A stretch of DNA of 64,000 nucleotides from Kordiimonadaceae bacterium (GTDB lineage Bacteria > Pseudomonadota > Alphaproteobacteria > Sphingomonadales > Kordiimonadaceae), in the NCBI GenBank assembly GCA_017640725.1, contig JAEPQB010000001.1, positions 310,001 to 374,000 of the forward strand. Direction: 5' to 3'. Numbering within the stretch: the stretch's first letter is position 1; every line of letters starts with the position of its first letter. Made by a program: the position numbers and the translations under genes. This document shows positions 52,552 through 61,142 of this stretch, in pieces. The notes below the pieces were generated by a model. That model saw only the letters and a program-made list of their open reading frames with translations, did no database searches and had not been told where the DNA came from.

Positions 52552-53603
52552 TAGCGTAACGACTCCTCAAGATAGCCATCCGTATAGAGTAGCGTGTGAT
52601 CGGGGTCGAAACTGAGCATGGCATTTTCGCTTGGCACTGGTTTGCCTGATGGCACGATCACCTTGGCTGATTGACCGGAAATGGAAACGCTGGCAATTCG
52701 GTGTCGTCCAAGGTCCTCAAGCGAGGTCACCTGACAGCTGATACCCTGGTCTGCAAAGTCCAGAAACTCGGGACGAATGCCCAACTGCACGCCTGACTTC
52801 TTAGCTGGAGCCTGTTTCAGATCAATAGACTGGTCGCCCAGCACGGCCCGTGAACCATCCAGTTCAACATCCAAGAAATTCATGCCAGGTGAACCAATGA
52901 AATAGCCAACAAACGTGTGGGCCGGGCGCTCAAACAGGTCTTCGGGTGTTCCAACTTGCAGCACTTCACCGGCATTCATCACCACAACTTTGTCGGCAAA
53001 TGTCAGGGCTTCCGTCTGGTCATGCGTGACATAAACCATGGTGTGGCTGAACTGGCGATGCAGGTCCTTAAGTTTGGAGCGAATTTGCCACTTCAGGTGA
53101 GGATCGATAACAGTGAGCGGTTCATCAAACAGGATGGCATTGACGTCCGTGCGCACCAGCCCCCGCCCCAGAGAGATAATCTGTTTTGCATCCGCCGTCA
53201 GGCCAGTAGCGCGACTATCCAAACGATCTGAAATCTCCAGCAAGCCAGCCACTTCTTCGACCCGGCCGTTGATGTCGGCGGGCGCCATGCCGCGGTTCTT
53301 GAGCGGAAAAGCGAGATTTTCGCGCACTGTCATGGTGTCATAGATGACAGGAAATTGGAAAACCTGAGCAATGTTGCGATGCGCTGTGTCAGCTCCCGTC
53401 ACATCCTTGCCATCAAACAGCACCTGGCCCTCTGACGGTTTCAGCAGTCCCGAAATGATGTTCAAAAGCGTGGTTTTCCCGCATCCCGACGGACCCAAGA
53501 GCGCATAGGCGCTGCCATCCTGCCAGATATGGTCCATCGACTTCAGGGCATATTCACCGGGCACGTATGCGTGCGCGATATCTTTCAGGTGAATTTCAGC
53601 CAT
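52551..53603 (-). CDS. glpT: ABC transporter ATPase, GlpT-like, degenerate signature motif
   Basis: A 350-residue MalK-type ATPase: Walker A LLGPSGCGKTT, Q-loop VFQFPVIYD, Walker B ILFDEPLTVIDP and H-loop VTHDQTEA, plus a C-terminal TOBE domain. The ABC signature LSGGQ is replaced by LTADAKQ, and the D-loop is also atypical. This pattern is what I associate with GlpT of the GlpSTPQUV system. The start was moved from 53729 to the ATG at 53603, which overlaps the end of glpS by eight bases. It should act as a heterodimer with GlpS. Confidence 0.83.
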   Translation of the reverse strand: MAEIHLKDIAHAYVPGEYALKSMDHIWQDGSAYALLGPSGCGKTTLLNIISGLLKPSEGQVLFDGKDVTGADTAHRNIAQVFQFPVIYDTMTVRENLAFPLKNRGMAPADINGRVEEVAGLLEISDRLDSRATGLTADAKQIISLGRGLVRTDVNAILFDEPLTVIDPHLKWQIRSKLKDLHRQFSHTMVYVTHDQTEALTFADKVVVMNAGEVLQVGTPEDLFERPAHTFVGYFIGSPGMNFLDVELDGSRAVLGDQSIDLKQAPAKKSGVQLGIRPEFLDFADQGISCQVTSLEDLGRHRIASVSISGQSAKVIVPSGKPVPSENAMLSFDPDHTLLYTDGYLEESLR

Positions 53604-54666
53604 TGCCCGCACCCCCGGCAAAAACAAATGCAGTTTCAGGGTCCAAAAACAACGAAACCTCGGCGCCAACCTCTGGCGCGTGGATACCGTGAGCAAGTGC
53701 CGTCCATCGCTCGCCAACGGCTTCAACATGTATGAAACTTTCAGACCCGGTGATTTCGGTAAGCGTCACTCGGCCCTTGAGCTCAACTTCGCATTCACTC
53801 GTGCGGGCAAGGCCCAACTGATGTGGGCGAAAGCCAACTGTGCACTTGGCGCCTTCCGCAACAGCACTTGCGTTGCCGTTAACTTTGAGTGTGAGATCAC
53901 CATCCAGAGATTTAACCTCGGCAGCATCAGACTTAATCGCAGGCAAAACATTCAGCGGCGGGTCAGCAAACGTCATGGCTGCCTGAAGGGAAGCTGGACT
54001 ATTATAGACTTCAAGGGTAGCACCGGCCTGCTGCACCTGCCCTTCATGCAACACAATCACTTGTCCCCCTAGCAATAGGGCTTCCTCGGGCTCTGAGGTC
54101 GCATAAACCACCATGCTGCCCGTGTTCTGGAAAAGTTTTGGCAATTCGGCGCGCAATTCTTCGCGAAGCTTGTAATCAAGGTTCGCCAGCGGCTCGTCCA
54201 GAAGAACCAATTCAGCTTCCCGTGCAAGCGCCCGGCCAAGGGCGACACGTTGCTGTTGGCCACCCGAAAGCTCAAGCGGTTTGCGCTGCAAAAAAGGCGT
54301 TAGACCCAAGAGGTCTGCAACTTTTTCAACGCGCGCGGCGATTTCATCCTTAGAGATTTTCGCGATTTTTAGTGGGGAAGCGATATTATCAAAAACGCTG
54401 AAGCCCGGGTAATTGATGAATTGCTGGTAAACGAACGCAACATCGCGTTTTCGAACCGGCAAGCCCGTAACATCCTGGCCAGCCATCATGATACGGCCCG
54501 CACTTGGTTCATCCAAGCCCGCCATCAGCCGCAAAAGGCTGGTTTTTCCAGCCAGCGTCGGCCCCAAAAGCACATTGAACTCGCCAGGATTACAACGAAC
54601 ACTCACATCTGAAATGTGGGTTTCGCCGTCAACATTTTTACTAACTGACTGGAGCTCAAGCGCCAC
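53596..54666 (-). CDS. glpS: ABC transporter ATPase, GlpS-like, no switch histidine
   Basis: A 356-residue MalK-type ATPase: Walker A LLGPTLAGKTS, Q-loop VYQQFINYP, an intact signature LSGGQQQRVALGRALA, Walker B LVLLDEPLANLDYKLREELRAELP and a TOBE region. In the H-loop the invariant histidine is missing (VVYATSEPEEALLL where VTHD is expected). First gene of the operon glpS-glpT-glpP-glpQ-glpU. Together with GlpT it can form one complete ATP site and one defective site. Confidence 0.85.
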   Translation of the reverse strand: MALELQSVSKNVDGETHISDVSVRCNPGEFNVLLGPTLAGKTSLLRLMAGLDEPSAGRIMMAGQDVTGLPVRKRDVAFVYQQFINYPGFSVFDNIASPLKIAKISKDEIAARVEKVADLLGLTPFLQRKPLELSGGQQQRVALGRALAREAELVLLDEPLANLDYKLREELRAELPKLFQNTGSMVVYATSEPEEALLLGGQVIVLHEGQVQQAGATLEVYNSPASLQAAMTFADPPLNVLPAIKSDAAEVKSLDGDLTLKVNGNASAVAEGAKCTVGFRPHQLGLARTSECEVELKGRVTLTEITGSESFIHVEAVGERWTALAHGIHAPEVGAEVSLFLDPETAFVFAGGAGNG

Positions 54667-54861: not shown

Positions 54862-56211
54862 ATGACCATACAAAAATTCGACACAATCATTATTGGCGGC
54901 GGCAATGGTGGATTTGGCGTTTCGTCAGTCCTTGCTGAGGCTGGACACAAAATCGCATTTATCGAAGAACGCGAGTTTGGCGGCGTTTGCCCCAACCGCG
55001 GATGTACGCCCAAAAAGATACTTGTTGCTGCGGCACAGGCGCTAGACCATATCGAGCGAGCGACTGATCATGGAATAACCGTCGGCAAAGCAACGCTCGA
55101 TTGGGCGGCGCTGATTGAGCGAAAAAACGGCATGATCGGCTTCATCCCCGGGGCCATGAAGGGTGTCGCTGAAAAGCGCGGCACTGTATTCGAAGGCCGG
55201 GCCGAATTCACAGGTACAAACACGGTTCGTGTTGGCGAGGCGGAGCTGGAGGCGGACAATATCATCATTGCGACCGGGTCCGTGCCGCGGCCATTGCCGA
55301 TCCCGGGGGCCGAGCATCTCATCACCAGTGATGAAGTCCTGTCTGATACCGTTCAGCCAGAGGAAGTTGTTTTCATCGGCGGCGGTGTTGTTGCGCTTGA
55401 ATTTGGCCACGTTTATGCCCGCGCGGGCAGCAAAGTGACGATCCTCGAGGTGATGCCACAACTGCTGCCGCGAATGGACAGCGACCTTGTTGGCAAGCTG
55501 GTGGAAGAGAGTGAACGTGTTGGCATAACCATCCATACCGGTGTTTCGGTGAACGAGATTGTTGATCTGGATGGCCGTGTTGAGGTGCAGTTCGAAAAAG
55601 GCGGCCAAGCCCAAAAAGTGACTGCAGACCGGGCCGTAAACGGTGCCGGGCGCGTGGCCAACACGGAAGGGTTGAACCTTGAAGCAGCCGGCATCAATGT
55701 TGACCGTGGGCGCATCAACGTCACCGAAAGCCTTCAGTCGACTGAAAACAAGGCCATTTGGGTTGTCGGCGACGCACTCGTCGGGGCGCCACAACTGTCA
55801 CCTGTGGCAACTTATGAAGGGCAAATTGTAGGTCGGAACATTCGCGACGGCGGCTCGGAATCGCCAAACTATGACGCATTGCCGAGCGGCGTTTATGCCG
55901 TGCCAGCGCTCGCAACCGTTGGTTTGACCGAAGCTGAGGCGGCTGAAAAATTCAGCAACCTGAAAGTCACAACCAATGACATGACAGGCTGGTTTTCAGG
56001 CAAGAGCTACAACGAAAATGTTGCGTGGGCGAAAGTGCTTATCGATGAAGACGGTGACCGCGTCGTTGGTGCGCACCTGATTGGGCATAATGCAGACGAT
56101 TTGATCCATGTATTTTCACTCGCTATGCAGCACGGCATTCCGGCCAGTGCGCTGCAAAGCTCAGCTTACGCCTACCCCAGCTTTTCCTCTGACGTGAAGA
56201 ACCTACTGTGA
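54862..56211 (+). CDS. FAD/NAD(P) disulfide reductase family protein without C-terminal His
   Basis: A 449-residue flavoprotein of the glutathione reductase/lipoamide dehydrogenase/mercuric reductase family. It has the FAD motif GGGNGGFG, the redox-active disulfide FGGVCPNRGCTPKK (C43, C48), ATGSVPR, the second nucleotide motif IGGGVVALEFG and the FAD-ribityl site WVVGDAL. The C-terminal dimerisation region ends SSAYAYPSFSSDVKNLL, where glutathione and lipoamide reductases have HxHPTxxE: the catalytic His is replaced by Tyr and the Glu is missing. Mercuric reductases also carry Tyr there, but no metal-binding domain or C-terminal Cys pair is present. Substrate unknown. Confidence 0.85.
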   Translation: MTIQKFDTIIIGGGNGGFGVSSVLAEAGHKIAFIEEREFGGVCPNRGCTPKKILVAAAQALDHIERATDHGITVGKATLDWAALIERKNGMIGFIPGAMKGVAEKRGTVFEGRAEFTGTNTVRVGEAELEADNIIIATGSVPRPLPIPGAEHLITSDEVLSDTVQPEEVVFIGGGVVALEFGHVYARAGSKVTILEVMPQLLPRMDSDLVGKLVEESERVGITIHTGVSVNEIVDLDGRVEVQFEKGGQAQKVTADRAVNGAGRVANTEGLNLEAAGINVDRGRINVTESLQSTENKAIWVVGDALVGAPQLSPVATYEGQIVGRNIRDGGSESPNYDALPSGVYAVPALATVGLTEAEAAEKFSNLKVTTNDMTGWFSGKSYNENVAWAKVLIDEDGDRVVGAHLIGHNADDLIHVFSLAMQHGIPASALQSSAYAYPSFSSDVKNLL

Positions 56212-56218
56212 GCAGCGG

Positions 56219-58327
56219 CTAGGTAACCCCATGGCCACGGTCCTGCTGGACCGTGCGCCAGGTCTCATTTTTCATGATATCGTCTAAAATCTGCACAGCC
56301 TGCCACACTTCAGAGTAACTGAGAGTTAGCGGGGTAAAGCCAAAGCGCAAAATGTCTGGGGCGCGGAAGTCACCGATCACGCCGCGCTCAATTAGTGCAC
56401 GCATGATGGCAAGTCCGTCTGGGTGCCTGAATGAGACCTGACTGCCACGCTTGTCTGCACGGCGCGGCGAGGCAAGCTTAAACCCGTAAGCTGGATCAAG
56501 CGCTTCCACCATTTCGATGAATAAGTCGCCCATGCTCATGCTTTTGGCGCGCAGGCTGGGCATATGCACACCTTCCCAGATATCAAGCGATGCCTCGAGC
56601 GCTGCCAAACTGACGATGGGCGGTGTGCCTGCAAGAAACTGTCTAATGTTGTCTGCCGGCTCATAATCGGTTGAAAAAGCAAACGGGTCCTTGTGGCCAA
56701 ACCATCCACTGATGGGGTTCTGGGCAGCCGCATGATGGCGCTCAGCAACGTACAAAAAGGCGGGAGCACCCGGGCCAGCATTCAAATATTTGTAGGTGCA
56801 GCCCACCGCCATATCCGTGCCTATTCCGTCCAGGTCCACTTGCACAGCCCCGGCGCTATGGGCTAAATCCCAAATCATGAGAGCGCCAGCGGCTTGCACC
56901 TGCTCGGTAACCGCTGCCATATTGTGGTTCGCGCCTGTTTTGAAGTCCACGCCCGTGAGCACAACCGCGGCGACGGTGTCGTCTAAAAGCTCATCAAGTG
57001 TTCCGTCGCGCCCAACAAGTTTAAGGTCAACACCGGGCCAAAAGCGCTCTATGCCCTGCAACACATAAATGTCAGACGGGAAATTATTTTCTTCCGTGAT
57101 AAGCGTGCGGCGACCCGGACGCATTTCCAGCGCCGAGCAAACCAATTTAAAGAGATTGACCGAAATGCTGTCTGTCACGGCTGTTTGCCCCGGGGCGGCA
57201 CCAACCAGTCGTCCGATCTTGTCACCCAGCGCCAGTGGTGTGCCGTACCAATCAGCATCACCCCAACTGCGGATCAGGCCGTCACCCCACTCTTTCTCGA
57301 CGACCTGGGCAACGCGTGCAGGGGCCGCCTTCGGGAGTGCGCCAAGGGAATTGCCGTCAAGATAAATGACGTCGTCAGGCATTTGGAACATGGCACGTTC
57401 ACGCGCAAACATGTCCGCTTCGACATAGCCGTGCATCGCGCATTGATCGGTCACGCACTTGCGTCCCACTGCACATTCAATAGCCCGCAGCAAAAGGCTC
57501 GAACCCGGCGCCATCAGGCCAAAAAGAATGTCGAAATGGTTTTTTTCACCCATGACTTGCAGTGTCATGTCCGGGCAATGGGGCTGCCAGGCGTCAAACA
57601 TCAACTGGGACTGGCGCTTAAACTCCTCAGGTTCAATATCCCCGACACAGATATGAACCGGGCAACGAGCCTTGGGAGCAAGCAGATTCGGGCTGAGCGC
57701 CTTTGCCTCGGTTTCACTCATTTTTGCGTCATTATTGACGTAGCTTTTCTGGACCGGGTCCAGGTCATAAACACCGCTAATCAGCAAAGCGCCTGCCAAC
57801 TGCGGCGCGTTCTCATCTGCTATCACCATGGCCGCCAAATGCGCGCCGGCAGAATGCCCAACCAAGGCAATACCGTCCGGGTCTATACCCAGGTCTTGCG
57901 CATTTTCAGCAAGCCACCGGATGGCGGTTCTGACGTCTTCGACTATGCCTGTGATTGTTGCTTCAGGCGCCAATCGATACGTAAGCGCGGCATAATGCAC
58001 ATCAGCTTCGTTCACATACGGTGCCGGGAACCTGAACAATGTACCGTCAAGCGCGGACCAAAACCCACCATGGATGAATACCACCAGTGGCTTGCGTGGT
58101 TGAGCCCCCAATCCATTTGACTGAGCAGGGAAAAAATCGAGGACCTGTCGCTTATGCGGTCCATACTTCAGGCCAAATTGCGCGTTCTTGAACGCGCCAG
58201 GTGATGGCGGCTGGCTACAAGCTGCATACTCTTCCAGATAGTCATCCAAGCTTTCAACCATTCGGCTGGGCGAATATTCGGCATCGAGAGTTTCCTGGTC
58301 TGTGGGGTAAGGCGCTTTTTCTTTCAT
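56219..58327 (-). CDS. kynurenine formamidase-kynureninase fusion
   Basis: A single 702-residue frame joins two enzymes of tryptophan degradation. Residues 1 to about 285 form an alpha/beta-hydrolase of the arylformamidase type: oxyanion VFIHGGFWSALD, nucleophile S159 in VGHSAGAHLA, Asp in VGDIEPEEF and His in EKNHFDILFG. Residues from about 292 on form a full kynureninase (PLP-dependent): VIYLDGNSLGALP, VTDSISVNLFKL, DLAHSAGAVQVDL and the PLP lysine K513 in GCTYKYLNAGPGAPAF. The product would turn N-formylkynurenine into anthranilate and alanine in one polypeptide. At the junction the minus strand reads GTGACC (57454), an overlapping start/stop pattern that could be the remnant of two coupled genes or of a one-base sequencing error. 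No tryptophan dioxygenase is nearby. Confidence 0.9.
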   Translation of the reverse strand: MKEKAPYPTDQETLDAEYSPSRMVESLDDYLEEYAACSQPPSPGAFKNAQFGLKYGPHKRQVLDFFPAQSNGLGAQPRKPLVVFIHGGFWSALDGTLFRFPAPYVNEADVHYAALTYRLAPEATITGIVEDVRTAIRWLAENAQDLGIDPDGIALVGHSAGAHLAAMVIADENAPQLAGALLISGVYDLDPVQKSYVNNDAKMSETEAKALSPNLLAPKARCPVHICVGDIEPEEFKRQSQLMFDAWQPHCPDMTLQVMGEKNHFDILFGLMAPGSSLLLRAIECAVGRKCVTDQCAMHGYVEADMFARERAMFQMPDDVIYLDGNSLGALPKAAPARVAQVVEKEWGDGLIRSWGDADWYGTPLALGDKIGRLVGAAPGQTAVTDSISVNLFKLVCSALEMRPGRRTLITEENNFPSDIYVLQGIERFWPGVDLKLVGRDGTLDELLDDTVAAVVLTGVDFKTGANHNMAAVTEQVQAAGALMIWDLAHSAGAVQVDLDGIGTDMAVGCTYKYLNAGPGAPAFLYVAERHHAAAQNPISGWFGHKDPFAFSTDYEPADNIRQFLAGTPPIVSLAALEASLDIWEGVHMPSLRAKSMSMGDLFIEMVEALDPAYGFKLASPRRADKRGSQVSFRHPDGLAIMRALIERGVIGDFRAPDILRFGFTPLTLSYSEVWQAVQILDDIMKNETWRTVQQDRGHGVT

Positions 58328-58485
58328 GGCGGCAGCCAGCCATAAAATGGCTGGAAAATCAACTCACTCTCGGCTGCCACATTTTGACCGCAACATTTCC
58401 GCGGCTTCGGCAAGGTTCCGGCATGAGCCCGCCACGCTTGGGTTCTAAGACAAGTGCAACTGAAACTCCTGCCTAAGGACTCCCC

Positions 58486-60588
58486 ATGCCTATCCTTCGA
58501 TCCCTCCTTTTTGTTTTTATCTTTTCTGTTTCTAGCCACGCCAGCCCCACATACGACGTGAACACCGTTGAACCCGGCGGCCTGTATTTTGCAACTGAAA
58601 AACCTGGGCGCGTTGTCCGCGCCCCAACACTCAAAGCCGATGTGGATATGGCCGTTTCTGGCCCCATCGTGCGCACGCGCGTTACCCAATATTTTGAGAA
58701 CACGGGCGACGCCTGGGTTGAGGGTATTTACACCTATCCATTACCAAAAGGCTCCGCGATTGACGTGCTAAAGATGCAGGTGGGTGACCGGGTTATTGAA
58801 GGTGAAATCAAAGAAAAACAGGAAGCCAAACGCACTTTCGAAAAAGCCCGCGATGAGGGTAAGAGGGCCAGTTTGGTGGTTCAACGTCGCCCCAACATTT
58901 TTTCTACCCGAATAGCCAATATCGGCCCGGGTGAAACGATCAAAGTGATGATTGAGTATCAAGACCTGATCGAGCCACGTGACAATGTCTTTGAACTGAG
59001 GTTCCCGATGGTGGTTCGCCCCCGATACAACCCCGGCATACCCTTAGATGACATTCAAGCCCGTGCTGGATGGGGTTTTGACACGGATCAGGTTCCAGAC
59101 GGCAGCACCCTTAACCCCGCATGGGTTGATGGCGCCAAATATGGGCACAATCCAGTATCCCTTTCTGTCGCTTTGGCGCCCGGTTTTGAACTCGATCAAA
59201 TAGACAGCCCAAGTCACGCCGTTTCGGTTGTGGAACTGGATGGCGGCGCGCAAATTAGCCTGTCAGAAGGCGCTGTGCTCGCAGATCAGGATTTTATTCT
59301 CCGCTGGACGCCGAAATCCAACTCAGCCCCGCAAATCGGTGTTTTTGAAGAGAACACAAGCGCAGGCAACCACCACCTTATCATGTTGATGCCGCCAACT
59401 GATCCCAGTGGCCAAAAAGATGTACCCGCCCGTGAGCTGATAATTGTGCTGGATAAATCAGGTTCGATGGGTGGACAGGCCATTCGGCAGGCGAAAGCGG
59501 CTGTAAGGCGCGCGGTCCTGCGACTGACGGCAAAGGACAGCTTCAACCTGATTGCCTTTGACAGCTTTGCGCAGGCGCTCTTCTCCAGCAGCCAGCCTGT
59601 GACCGACCGTACAATCGACGAAGCCCTGGACTTCATCGGCAACGTGCAAGCCGATGGCGGCACAGAAATGAGTGATGCGCTAACGCTTGCCCTTCCTCAG
59701 CAGGATAGCGTTAGCACGAAAATCCGACAGGTGATTTTCGTTACCGATGGTGCCGTTGGGAATGAAGCTGCGTTGATGGCTCAGATCAAGCAAAACTTGG
59801 GAAATGCCCGTTTGTTTACTGTCGGCATTGGTAGCGCCCCCAATAGTTATTTTATGAGTGAGGCTGCACATTTTGGCCGCGGCACCTACGTGAATATCGC
59901 CATGCAGGATGATGTCATGACCGCGATGGCCGACTTGTTTGCCAAGATTGAAAAACCACAAATCACCGGTATCGCCGTCTCAGGAATTCCAAACAATATT
60001 GACCTGGCGCCAGTGAGCCTGCCTGACCTGTACGCAGGCGAGCCGATCATTGTTGCCTTGAAGGGTGATTTGGGCTCTAGCCAAATGGTGGTGACGGGCA
60101 GCAAGGATGGCCAGCCCTGGTCAATGGAAGTGCCTGCTGCCCAAGGTGGTGCTTCGGCCGGCGTTGCCAACTTATGGGCGCGGCGCAAGATTCAATCCGT
60201 GAACCGCGATTTTGTTGGTCAGTTTGGTCAAGATGCTATGGACGCCAAACGCGCCCAGATAACCACACTTGCGCTCGACTATCATCTCGTCAGTGATTTC
60301 ACGAGCCTCGTTGCCGTAGAACAAGAGCCCGCACGTCCGATAAACGACCCGCTCTTCAAACGTGAAGTTCGCCAAAACCTGCCAGCCGGCATGGATTGGG
60401 CCCAGCGCAAACGCATGACGATAACAAGCGGCCTTTTGGCGAAACCAGCATTCTCAGCGGAACTGCAGGCCGTGAGCCCCAGGGGCACAGCCTCACCGAT
60501 GAAGCTCTATCTACTGCTGGGCACAATACTCATGCTTGCTTCCATCCTGGTGATCACGGCAACCAATCGCCGCAGGGTGACAGCGTGA
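58486..60588 (+). CDS. VIT/VWA-domain protein, class GN sortase target
   Basis: A 700-residue exported protein: signal peptide (LLFVFIFSVSSHA), VIT domain (residues about 40-170; EGIYTYPLPKGSAIDVLKMQVGDRVIEGEIKEKQEAKRTFEKARDEGKRASLV), a von Willebrand A domain with MIDAS motif LDKSGSMGG and VTDGAVGNE, and a C-terminal cell-surface sorting signal made of a short motif, a hydrophobic helix (LYLLLGTILMLASILVITA) and the basic tail NRRR. It corresponds to the marine proteobacterial sortase target family. The sorting motif reads SPRGTASP instead of an LPxTx-like motif. The stop overlaps the sortase start by four bases. Confidence 0.9.
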   Translation: MPILRSLLFVFIFSVSSHASPTYDVNTVEPGGLYFATEKPGRVVRAPTLKADVDMAVSGPIVRTRVTQYFENTGDAWVEGIYTYPLPKGSAIDVLKMQVGDRVIEGEIKEKQEAKRTFEKARDEGKRASLVVQRRPNIFSTRIANIGPGETIKVMIEYQDLIEPRDNVFELRFPMVVRPRYNPGIPLDDIQARAGWGFDTDQVPDGSTLNPAWVDGAKYGHNPVSLSVALAPGFELDQIDSPSHAVSVVELDGGAQISLSEGAVLADQDFILRWTPKSNSAPQIGVFEENTSAGNHHLIMLMPPTDPSGQKDVPARELIIVLDKSGSMGGQAIRQAKAAVRRAVLRLTAKDSFNLIAFDSFAQALFSSSQPVTDRTIDEALDFIGNVQADGGTEMSDALTLALPQQDSVSTKIRQVIFVTDGAVGNEAALMAQIKQNLGNARLFTVGIGSAPNSYFMSEAAHFGRGTYVNIAMQDDVMTAMADLFAKIEKPQITGIAVSGIPNNIDLAPVSLPDLYAGEPIIVALKGDLGSSQMVVTGSKDGQPWSMEVPAAQGGASAGVANLWARRKIQSVNRDFVGQFGQDAMDAKRAQITTLALDYHLVSDFTSLVAVEQEPARPINDPLFKREVRQNLPAGMDWAQRKRMTITSGLLAKPAFSAELQAVSPRGTASPMKLYLLLGTILMLASILVITATNRRRVTA

Positions 60589-61142
60589 ACAGGCTTCGTG
60601 CAACAGCCATTGCAACCGCGCTTTCGGGCGCGGTATTGCTCGCCAAAGGGTTATGGATTCCGCTTAAGGCTGAACTTGCTTACGGTTTGATGGACCGCGC
60701 CTTTGTCACTGCGCAAAGCCAGCAATCGCCTTCAAAACCCTGGTCTTGGGCTGACTTTGGTGTGATTGGTAAATTGTTTTTGCTCGGTGAAGAGATACAC
60801 GTTCTGGACCGCGCAACAAACCAGGCGATGGCCTTTGGTGCTGGGCGACATGAGGAATATGAGAGTGACGGTCCTCTTGTGCTTTCAGGGCACCGGGACA
60901 CCCATTTTTCCATCTTGGAGCACGTCAAAACAGGTGACAGAATTAACTTTCAGTCGGTTGAAACAGACAGAAGCTATGAAGTTACGGACACCCGCATTTT
61001 TGACGTTCGAGAGGGGGCCTTGTTGCCCCCTGCCCCCGGTCAAATCATGCTGATAACCTGCTGGCCATTCGATGGTGTCGACCCAGCCACGACCAAACGC
61101 TATCTGGTCCTGGCTGAGCAGAGTGCAGCGACCGGTCGGTGA
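60585..61142 (+). CDS. class GN sortase
   Basis: A 185-residue transpeptidase of the sortase type found in marine Proteobacteria. The N-terminus is a membrane anchor (ATAIATALSGAVLLAKGLWIPLKAELA). The catalytic set is complete: H103 in LSGHRDTHFS, C159 in LITCWPFDGV and R172 in TTKRYLVLAE. It starts with GTG at 60585 in a GTGA overlap with the preceding target gene, so the two are translationally coupled; the track start at 60396 lies inside the target gene and adds a non-sortase segment. Its only evident substrate in the window is that neighbour. Confidence 0.92.
   Translation: MNRLRATAIATALSGAVLLAKGLWIPLKAELAYGLMDRAFVTAQSQQSPSKPWSWADFGVIGKLFLLGEEIHVLDRATNQAMAFGAGRHEEYESDGPLVLSGHRDTHFSILEHVKTGDRINFQSVETDRSYEVTDTRIFDVREGALLPPAPGQIMLITCWPFDGVDPATTKRYLVLAEQSAATGR

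Follow-up and report, generated by a model that had tools for sequence, protein, structure and literature searches.

A candidate bifunctional kynurenine formamidase–kynureninase encoded by one reading frame in Kordiimonadaceae

A single open reading frame in the 64,000-nucleotide stretch of a Kordiimonadaceae genome analysed here (hereafter the window) joins an alpha/beta-hydrolase of the kynurenine formamidase type to a complete kynureninase. Comparison of this gene with its relatives indicates that the fusion is real and has long been kept, in two lineages of one genus. We consider it quite probable that two once-overlapping cistrons have genuinely fused and specify a bifunctional product, and that the block carrying them probably passed between lineages. 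As for the fuller proposition, that this is the first described natural bifunctional formamidase-kynureninase, that it arose when two overlapping genes came to share a frame and that the result spread together with a reductase block between lineages of a marine genus, the chances appear evenly balanced. In the following, G000 denotes the genome of the window and G014 the metagenome-assembled genome MH1_Bin8 (contig JAALKD010000074.1) of the same genus.

The fused reading frame and its kynureninase half

The frame extends from ATG to TAG over 702 codons without an internal stop (Table 1), and the remaining two frames of the minus strand contain 27 and 45 stops over the same interval. GC3 is continuous across the seam, with values of 0.56, 0.64 and 0.61. 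An earlier note on this DNA had described an in-frame union of a formamidase-type hydrolase with a full kynureninase, and the single frame, with both of its halves matched, bears this out. The positions given there for Ser159 (in GHSAGAH), His264 (in EKNHFD) and Lys513 (in TYKYLN) are all correct, as is that of the GTGA, in which GTG is codon 292 and from which 411 codons follow.

Table 1. Features of the fused gene and its surroundings in the window
Feature	Residues	Position	Strand	Remarks
Fused ORF, alpha/beta-hydrolase (kynurenine formamidase type) + kynureninase	702 aa	56219–58327	-	
N-terminal alpha/beta-hydrolase	1–287	57467–58327	-	Pfam, profile and fold match
HGGFW	86–90	58072–58058	-	N-terminal hydrolase
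Ser159	159	57853–57851	-	N-terminal hydrolase
Glu232	232	57634–57632	-	N-terminal hydrolase
His264	264	57538–57536	-	N-terminal hydrolase
Formamidase tail and junction	288–313	57389–57466	-	Low model confidence
GTGA, remnant of the old overlap of kynU start and formamidase stop		57451–57454	-	GTG now Val292
C-terminal kynureninase	305–702	56222–57415	-	TIGR01814, 1QZ9
PLP lysine	513	56791–56789	-	C-terminal kynureninase
Class I FAD/NAD(P)H disulfide reductase		54862–56211	+	Convergent with fusion
UgpC/GlpS-like ABC transporter ATPase		53596–54666	-	Directly after kynU in four unfused relatives
Conserved upstream elements GCCGGAACnnTGCCG, TTGCGGTnAAnnTGTGGC and TTGATTT		58356–58422	-	Common to 6/6 loci

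The C-terminal half is by sequence a complete kynureninase, predicted to convert kynurenine to anthranilate and alanine. Residues 304–686 pass the kynureninase equivalog model TIGR01814 (279.8 bits, cut-off 246.4), residues 592–681 match the KYNU_C domain PF22580 with 119 bits (Pfam), and the best solved relative is the kynureninase of P. fluorescens (1QZ9, E=4e-125), with whose K227 the fused Lys513 aligns, the PLP lysine being surrounded by TYKYLN in both. Compared with bacterial KynU as represented by 1QZ9 and TIGR01814, this half has the same full length, PLP lysine, TYKYLN motif and KYNU_C domain; the fused protein differs in carrying a 291-residue hydrolase ahead of the former kynU start position.

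The hydrolase half as a putative kynurenine formamidase

Assigning a function to the N-terminal half is more involved. It matches neither the KynB family (PF04199/TIGR03035; Pfam and NCBIfam) nor any curated NCBIfam model that would name it a formamidase. Descriptions of bacterial formamidases usually concern KynB, which is metal-dependent (PMC4243253). The same reaction is expected of the hydrolase half (PMC4243253); the two folds are unrelated. Residues 78–198 match the Pfam families BD-FAE and Abhydrolase_3. A profile search with the hydrolase family retrieved 2PBL (a putative thioesterase) and 9N8R (Lipase 1), followed by the Drosophila kynurenine formamidase 4E11 at E=1.6e-33. The structure model of this half, in which block means are mostly 75–94 pLDDT, returned 9N8R and 2PBL in a fold search, then the fly formamidases 4E15, 4E11 and 4E14, whose target-normalised TM-scores are 0.73–0.75 as against 0.54–0.67 for the other esterases listed. 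Judged by these profile and model comparisons, its nearest relative of tested function is the fly kynurenine formamidase. Both share the alpha/beta-hydrolase fold, the HGGxW and GHSAGAH motifs and the catalytic His, with which His264 is aligned; Ser159 and HGGFW are likewise present. The differences are that the hydrolase half is bacterial, is fused to a kynureninase, is about 20–22% identical to its fly counterpart when the folds are aligned and has Glu232 aligned on the fly catalytic Asp.

The N-domain might instead be some other HSL-like esterase or amidase that merely hitch-hikes with the kynureninase. Its best Pfam families are general ones, the closest NCBIfam model is that of the hormone-sensitive lipase family (148.5 of a 320 cut-off), the acid is Glu where the fly enzyme has Asp, and the nearest solved structures are uncharacterised or named lipase. 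We nevertheless regard this reading as unlikely, given that HGGFW and GHSAGAH resemble the fly HGGYW and GHSAGAH and not the HGGG of typical HSL esterases, that the family profile reaches the fly formamidase with the E-value above, and that homologues of the hydrolase adjoin kynU in several lineages, namely in this genus and in Chloroflexota, where a tryptophan dioxygenase lies near. In G611, too, a homologue stands divergent from kynU-kynA, and here again a tryptophan dioxygenase is near. The putative formamidase function of the hydrolase half is thus well supported by context, with fold and motifs pointing the same way.

The junction and the origin of the fusion

The earlier note had suggested a search for the same fusion in related genomes, and a genome search found it in G014, whose protein is 71% identical to that of G000 and whose junction is free of stops. 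The in-frame join occurs there at identical spacing, with the GTGA at the same place. Had the fusion been an artefact, its relatives might all have been expected to carry two separate genes; this holds for four members of the genus (G005, G013, G015 and G018), in which the genes are separate, adjacent and overlapping by 1–8 bases, but not for G014. Between G000 and G014, pS is 0.77 in the kynureninase and 0.74 in the formamidase half, so that synonymous sites are saturated, and dN/dS of the formamidase half is about 0.11. This comparison shows the fused gene to be conserved under purifying selection. The tail and junction (residues 288–313) are the least conserved of any part when the two fusions are compared.

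These data bear directly on the possibility that an assembly or sequencing error has made one frame out of two overlapping genes, with one or two bases lost or gained in the consensus. The sequence evidence consists of contigs, and of the six relatives that have both genes, four keep them separate. Against this, the G014 assembly is independent and has an identical, identically spaced join despite saturated synonymous divergence, and an artefact, which the earlier note had entertained, is therefore rejected; we consider such an error very improbable indeed. The G014 copy has a difficulty of its own, since the fused gene is split over two contigs (L002 and L053; C11 and C124) with a 55-bp shared end, and joining them shifts the frame by one base at a T run upstream of the junction. 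In that part, the G014 hydrolase may be either truly frameshifted or wrongly assembled. At its catalytic His, Asn replaces the Asp that follows HisPhe.

The spacing at the seam is informative as to how a genuine fusion could have come about. From the codon of the catalytic His to the kynU start, the fused genomes both have 84 nt (frame 0) and the four unfused ones 82, 86, 86 and 86 nt. The GTG of Val292 lies 32 residues before DGNSLG. In G005 and G018 the start Met is at this same distance, and in G013 and G015 it is 31 and 33 residues away, respectively. Given that the GTG occupies the kynU start position of the unfused relatives, the GTGA is a vestige of the old start/stop overlap, as had been supposed. 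The one-base change that the earlier note had offered as the origin does not agree with these distances, which call for a net change of two bases between the nearest arrangements, barring lost intermediates.

We propose that in the ancestor the formamidase stop overlapped the kynU start, and that an indel of small net size among the final formamidase codons would have put both genes in the same frame, with the stop skipped and the old start codon read as Val292. In the resulting chain, composed of the hydrolase domain, a short and poorly conserved junction and the kynureninase, the N-domain (Ser159 and His264, the acid probably being Glu232) would hydrolyse N-formylkynurenine, yielding kynurenine and formate; the kynurenine would be cleaved to anthranilate and alanine by the C-domain, with PLP on Lys513. 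Overall, one chain of about 76 kDa would convert N-formylkynurenine to anthranilate, alanine and formate. Kynureninases of known structure are dimers, and the hydrolase would therefore ride on a kynureninase dimer. In full-length AlphaFold models, the hydrolase half is confident, and the kynureninase half and linker are poor because the alignments are shallow; for this reason we claim no domain arrangement. Gene fusion alone has been reported not to promote channelling (PMC4921024), and we claim neither channelling nor another benefit of the linkage.

From the sequence we infer that the fused chain is the sole product. A separate kynureninase might also be made from the vestigial GTG, the fusion then being one of two products. 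The GTG at the ancestral start position is kept in both fused genomes, and in G014 an anti-SD match of -7.0 kcal/mol stands just before it, albeit at an odd spacing. In the window, however, the match is -3.9 kcal/mol, as against a mean of -2.8 (sd 2.1) at random ORF positions and -5.3 to -11.8 before unfused kynU genes, and Val at codon 292 has perhaps simply been retained. We hold internal initiation to be improbable and the fused chain to be the better account of what the gene would produce.

History, distribution and significance of the locus

The disulfide reductase located between the fusion and the transporter is present only in G000 and G014 among the compared loci. Its best NCBIfam match is lipoamide dehydrogenase, under all cut-offs shown. 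TyrRS, the dioxygenase-like locus and the ABC transporter genes group G014 with G015 (and G009), apart from G000, and the transporter data reject a pairing of G000 with G014 by 177 log-likelihood units. In the tree of the formamidase half, G000 and G014 are sisters (support 100/98), and the two sequences have a small insertion in common; tests reject the alternative pairings L001+L003 (p 0.002) and L002+L006 (p 0.005). The large kynureninase tree places G000 with the unfused G005 (support 99/90); in the test of the kynureninase half, the pairing of G000 with G014 is not rejected (p 0.35). Since the flanking genes reject the sisterhood of G000 and G014, while the formamidase half and the reductase are common to these two only, the block of reductase and fused gene was probably exchanged horizontally between lineages of the genus. 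The simplest reading is that of one fusion event and a transfer of this block between lineages.

Upstream of the hydrolase start, the three elements conserved in fused and unfused loci alike (Table 1) may represent a promoter or operator, which perhaps also serves the divergent gene. At 58486–61142, a gene for a sortase target protein of the marine proteobacterial family (TIGR03788, 691 bits against a cut-off of 552) runs divergently from the fusion and is followed by a sortase-like gene, a pair which adjoins the same locus in the unfused relatives.

The fusion appears to be rare. No third case was found among the best matches in 20 genomes of the genus or in samples of the order, class and phylum comprising 401, 385 and 399 genomes, respectively; these samples overlap and their lists are ranked by E-value, so that a distant fusion could escape. 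A scan of contigs for close relatives gave the G014 copy as the sole other fusion, and plasmid records contained no match covering at least 80% of the fused query. Several candidates were discarded. Two Chloroflexota loci of Ca. Aquidulcis (L046:2551–4662 and L047:4965–7076), in which one match spanned both halves, contain the hydrolase and kynU in the same frame, with only one TGA plus a few codons in between, and have a convergent tryptophan dioxygenase downstream; this arrangement is close to a parallel fusion. In G619, one TGA likewise separates the genes, and the long kynU frames of L061, L063 and L067 have upstream parts that run antisense to other genes or overlap them and are not formamidase. 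No description of a formamidase–kynureninase fusion was found in the literature searched, and the main text of a survey of gene fusions does not mention the kynurenine pathway (PMC4921024). As in 'Rosetta stone' fusions, which unite enzymes of consecutive pathway steps (PMC4921024), the components are separate neighbours in relatives. The fusion makes biochemical sense and is apparently new and seemingly undescribed, the enzymes and the kind of event being already known.

With regard to the other kynurenine genes of G000, the search for a KynB-type formamidase yielded one PF04199 protein, which reaches 75 of 223 bits (TIGR03035) and lies away from the kyn genes. PF03301 is matched in this genome by a single protein, a short and divergent one of dioxygenase-like type (C6:1268.2 kb; 134 bits versus a cut-off of 391 for TIGR03036), which leaves the supply of N-formylkynurenine uncertain. 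The dioxygenase-like gene lies directly before that of a 369-aa class V PLP protein, a distant kynureninase relative with 43 of 246 bits (C6:1268230–1270076; L052:6230–8076), and an Lrp/AsnC-like regulator is encoded upstream on the opposite strand. This divergent dioxygenase occurs in a six-genome clade and G009, and most other members of the genus have a better-scoring dioxygenase near kynU. A search for 3-hydroxyanthranilate dioxygenase (PF06052) returned no match, its control being silent as well.

We contend that a hydrolase of unsettled specificity tied to a kynureninase is good functional evidence on bacterial kynurenine formamidases, and that it applies to genomes without a clear KynB, in which alpha/beta-hydrolases may act as kynurenine formamidase. 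The locus also offers a clean case of overlapping genes becoming one protein, in which the old start is still legible at the seam and unfused relatives are available for comparison.
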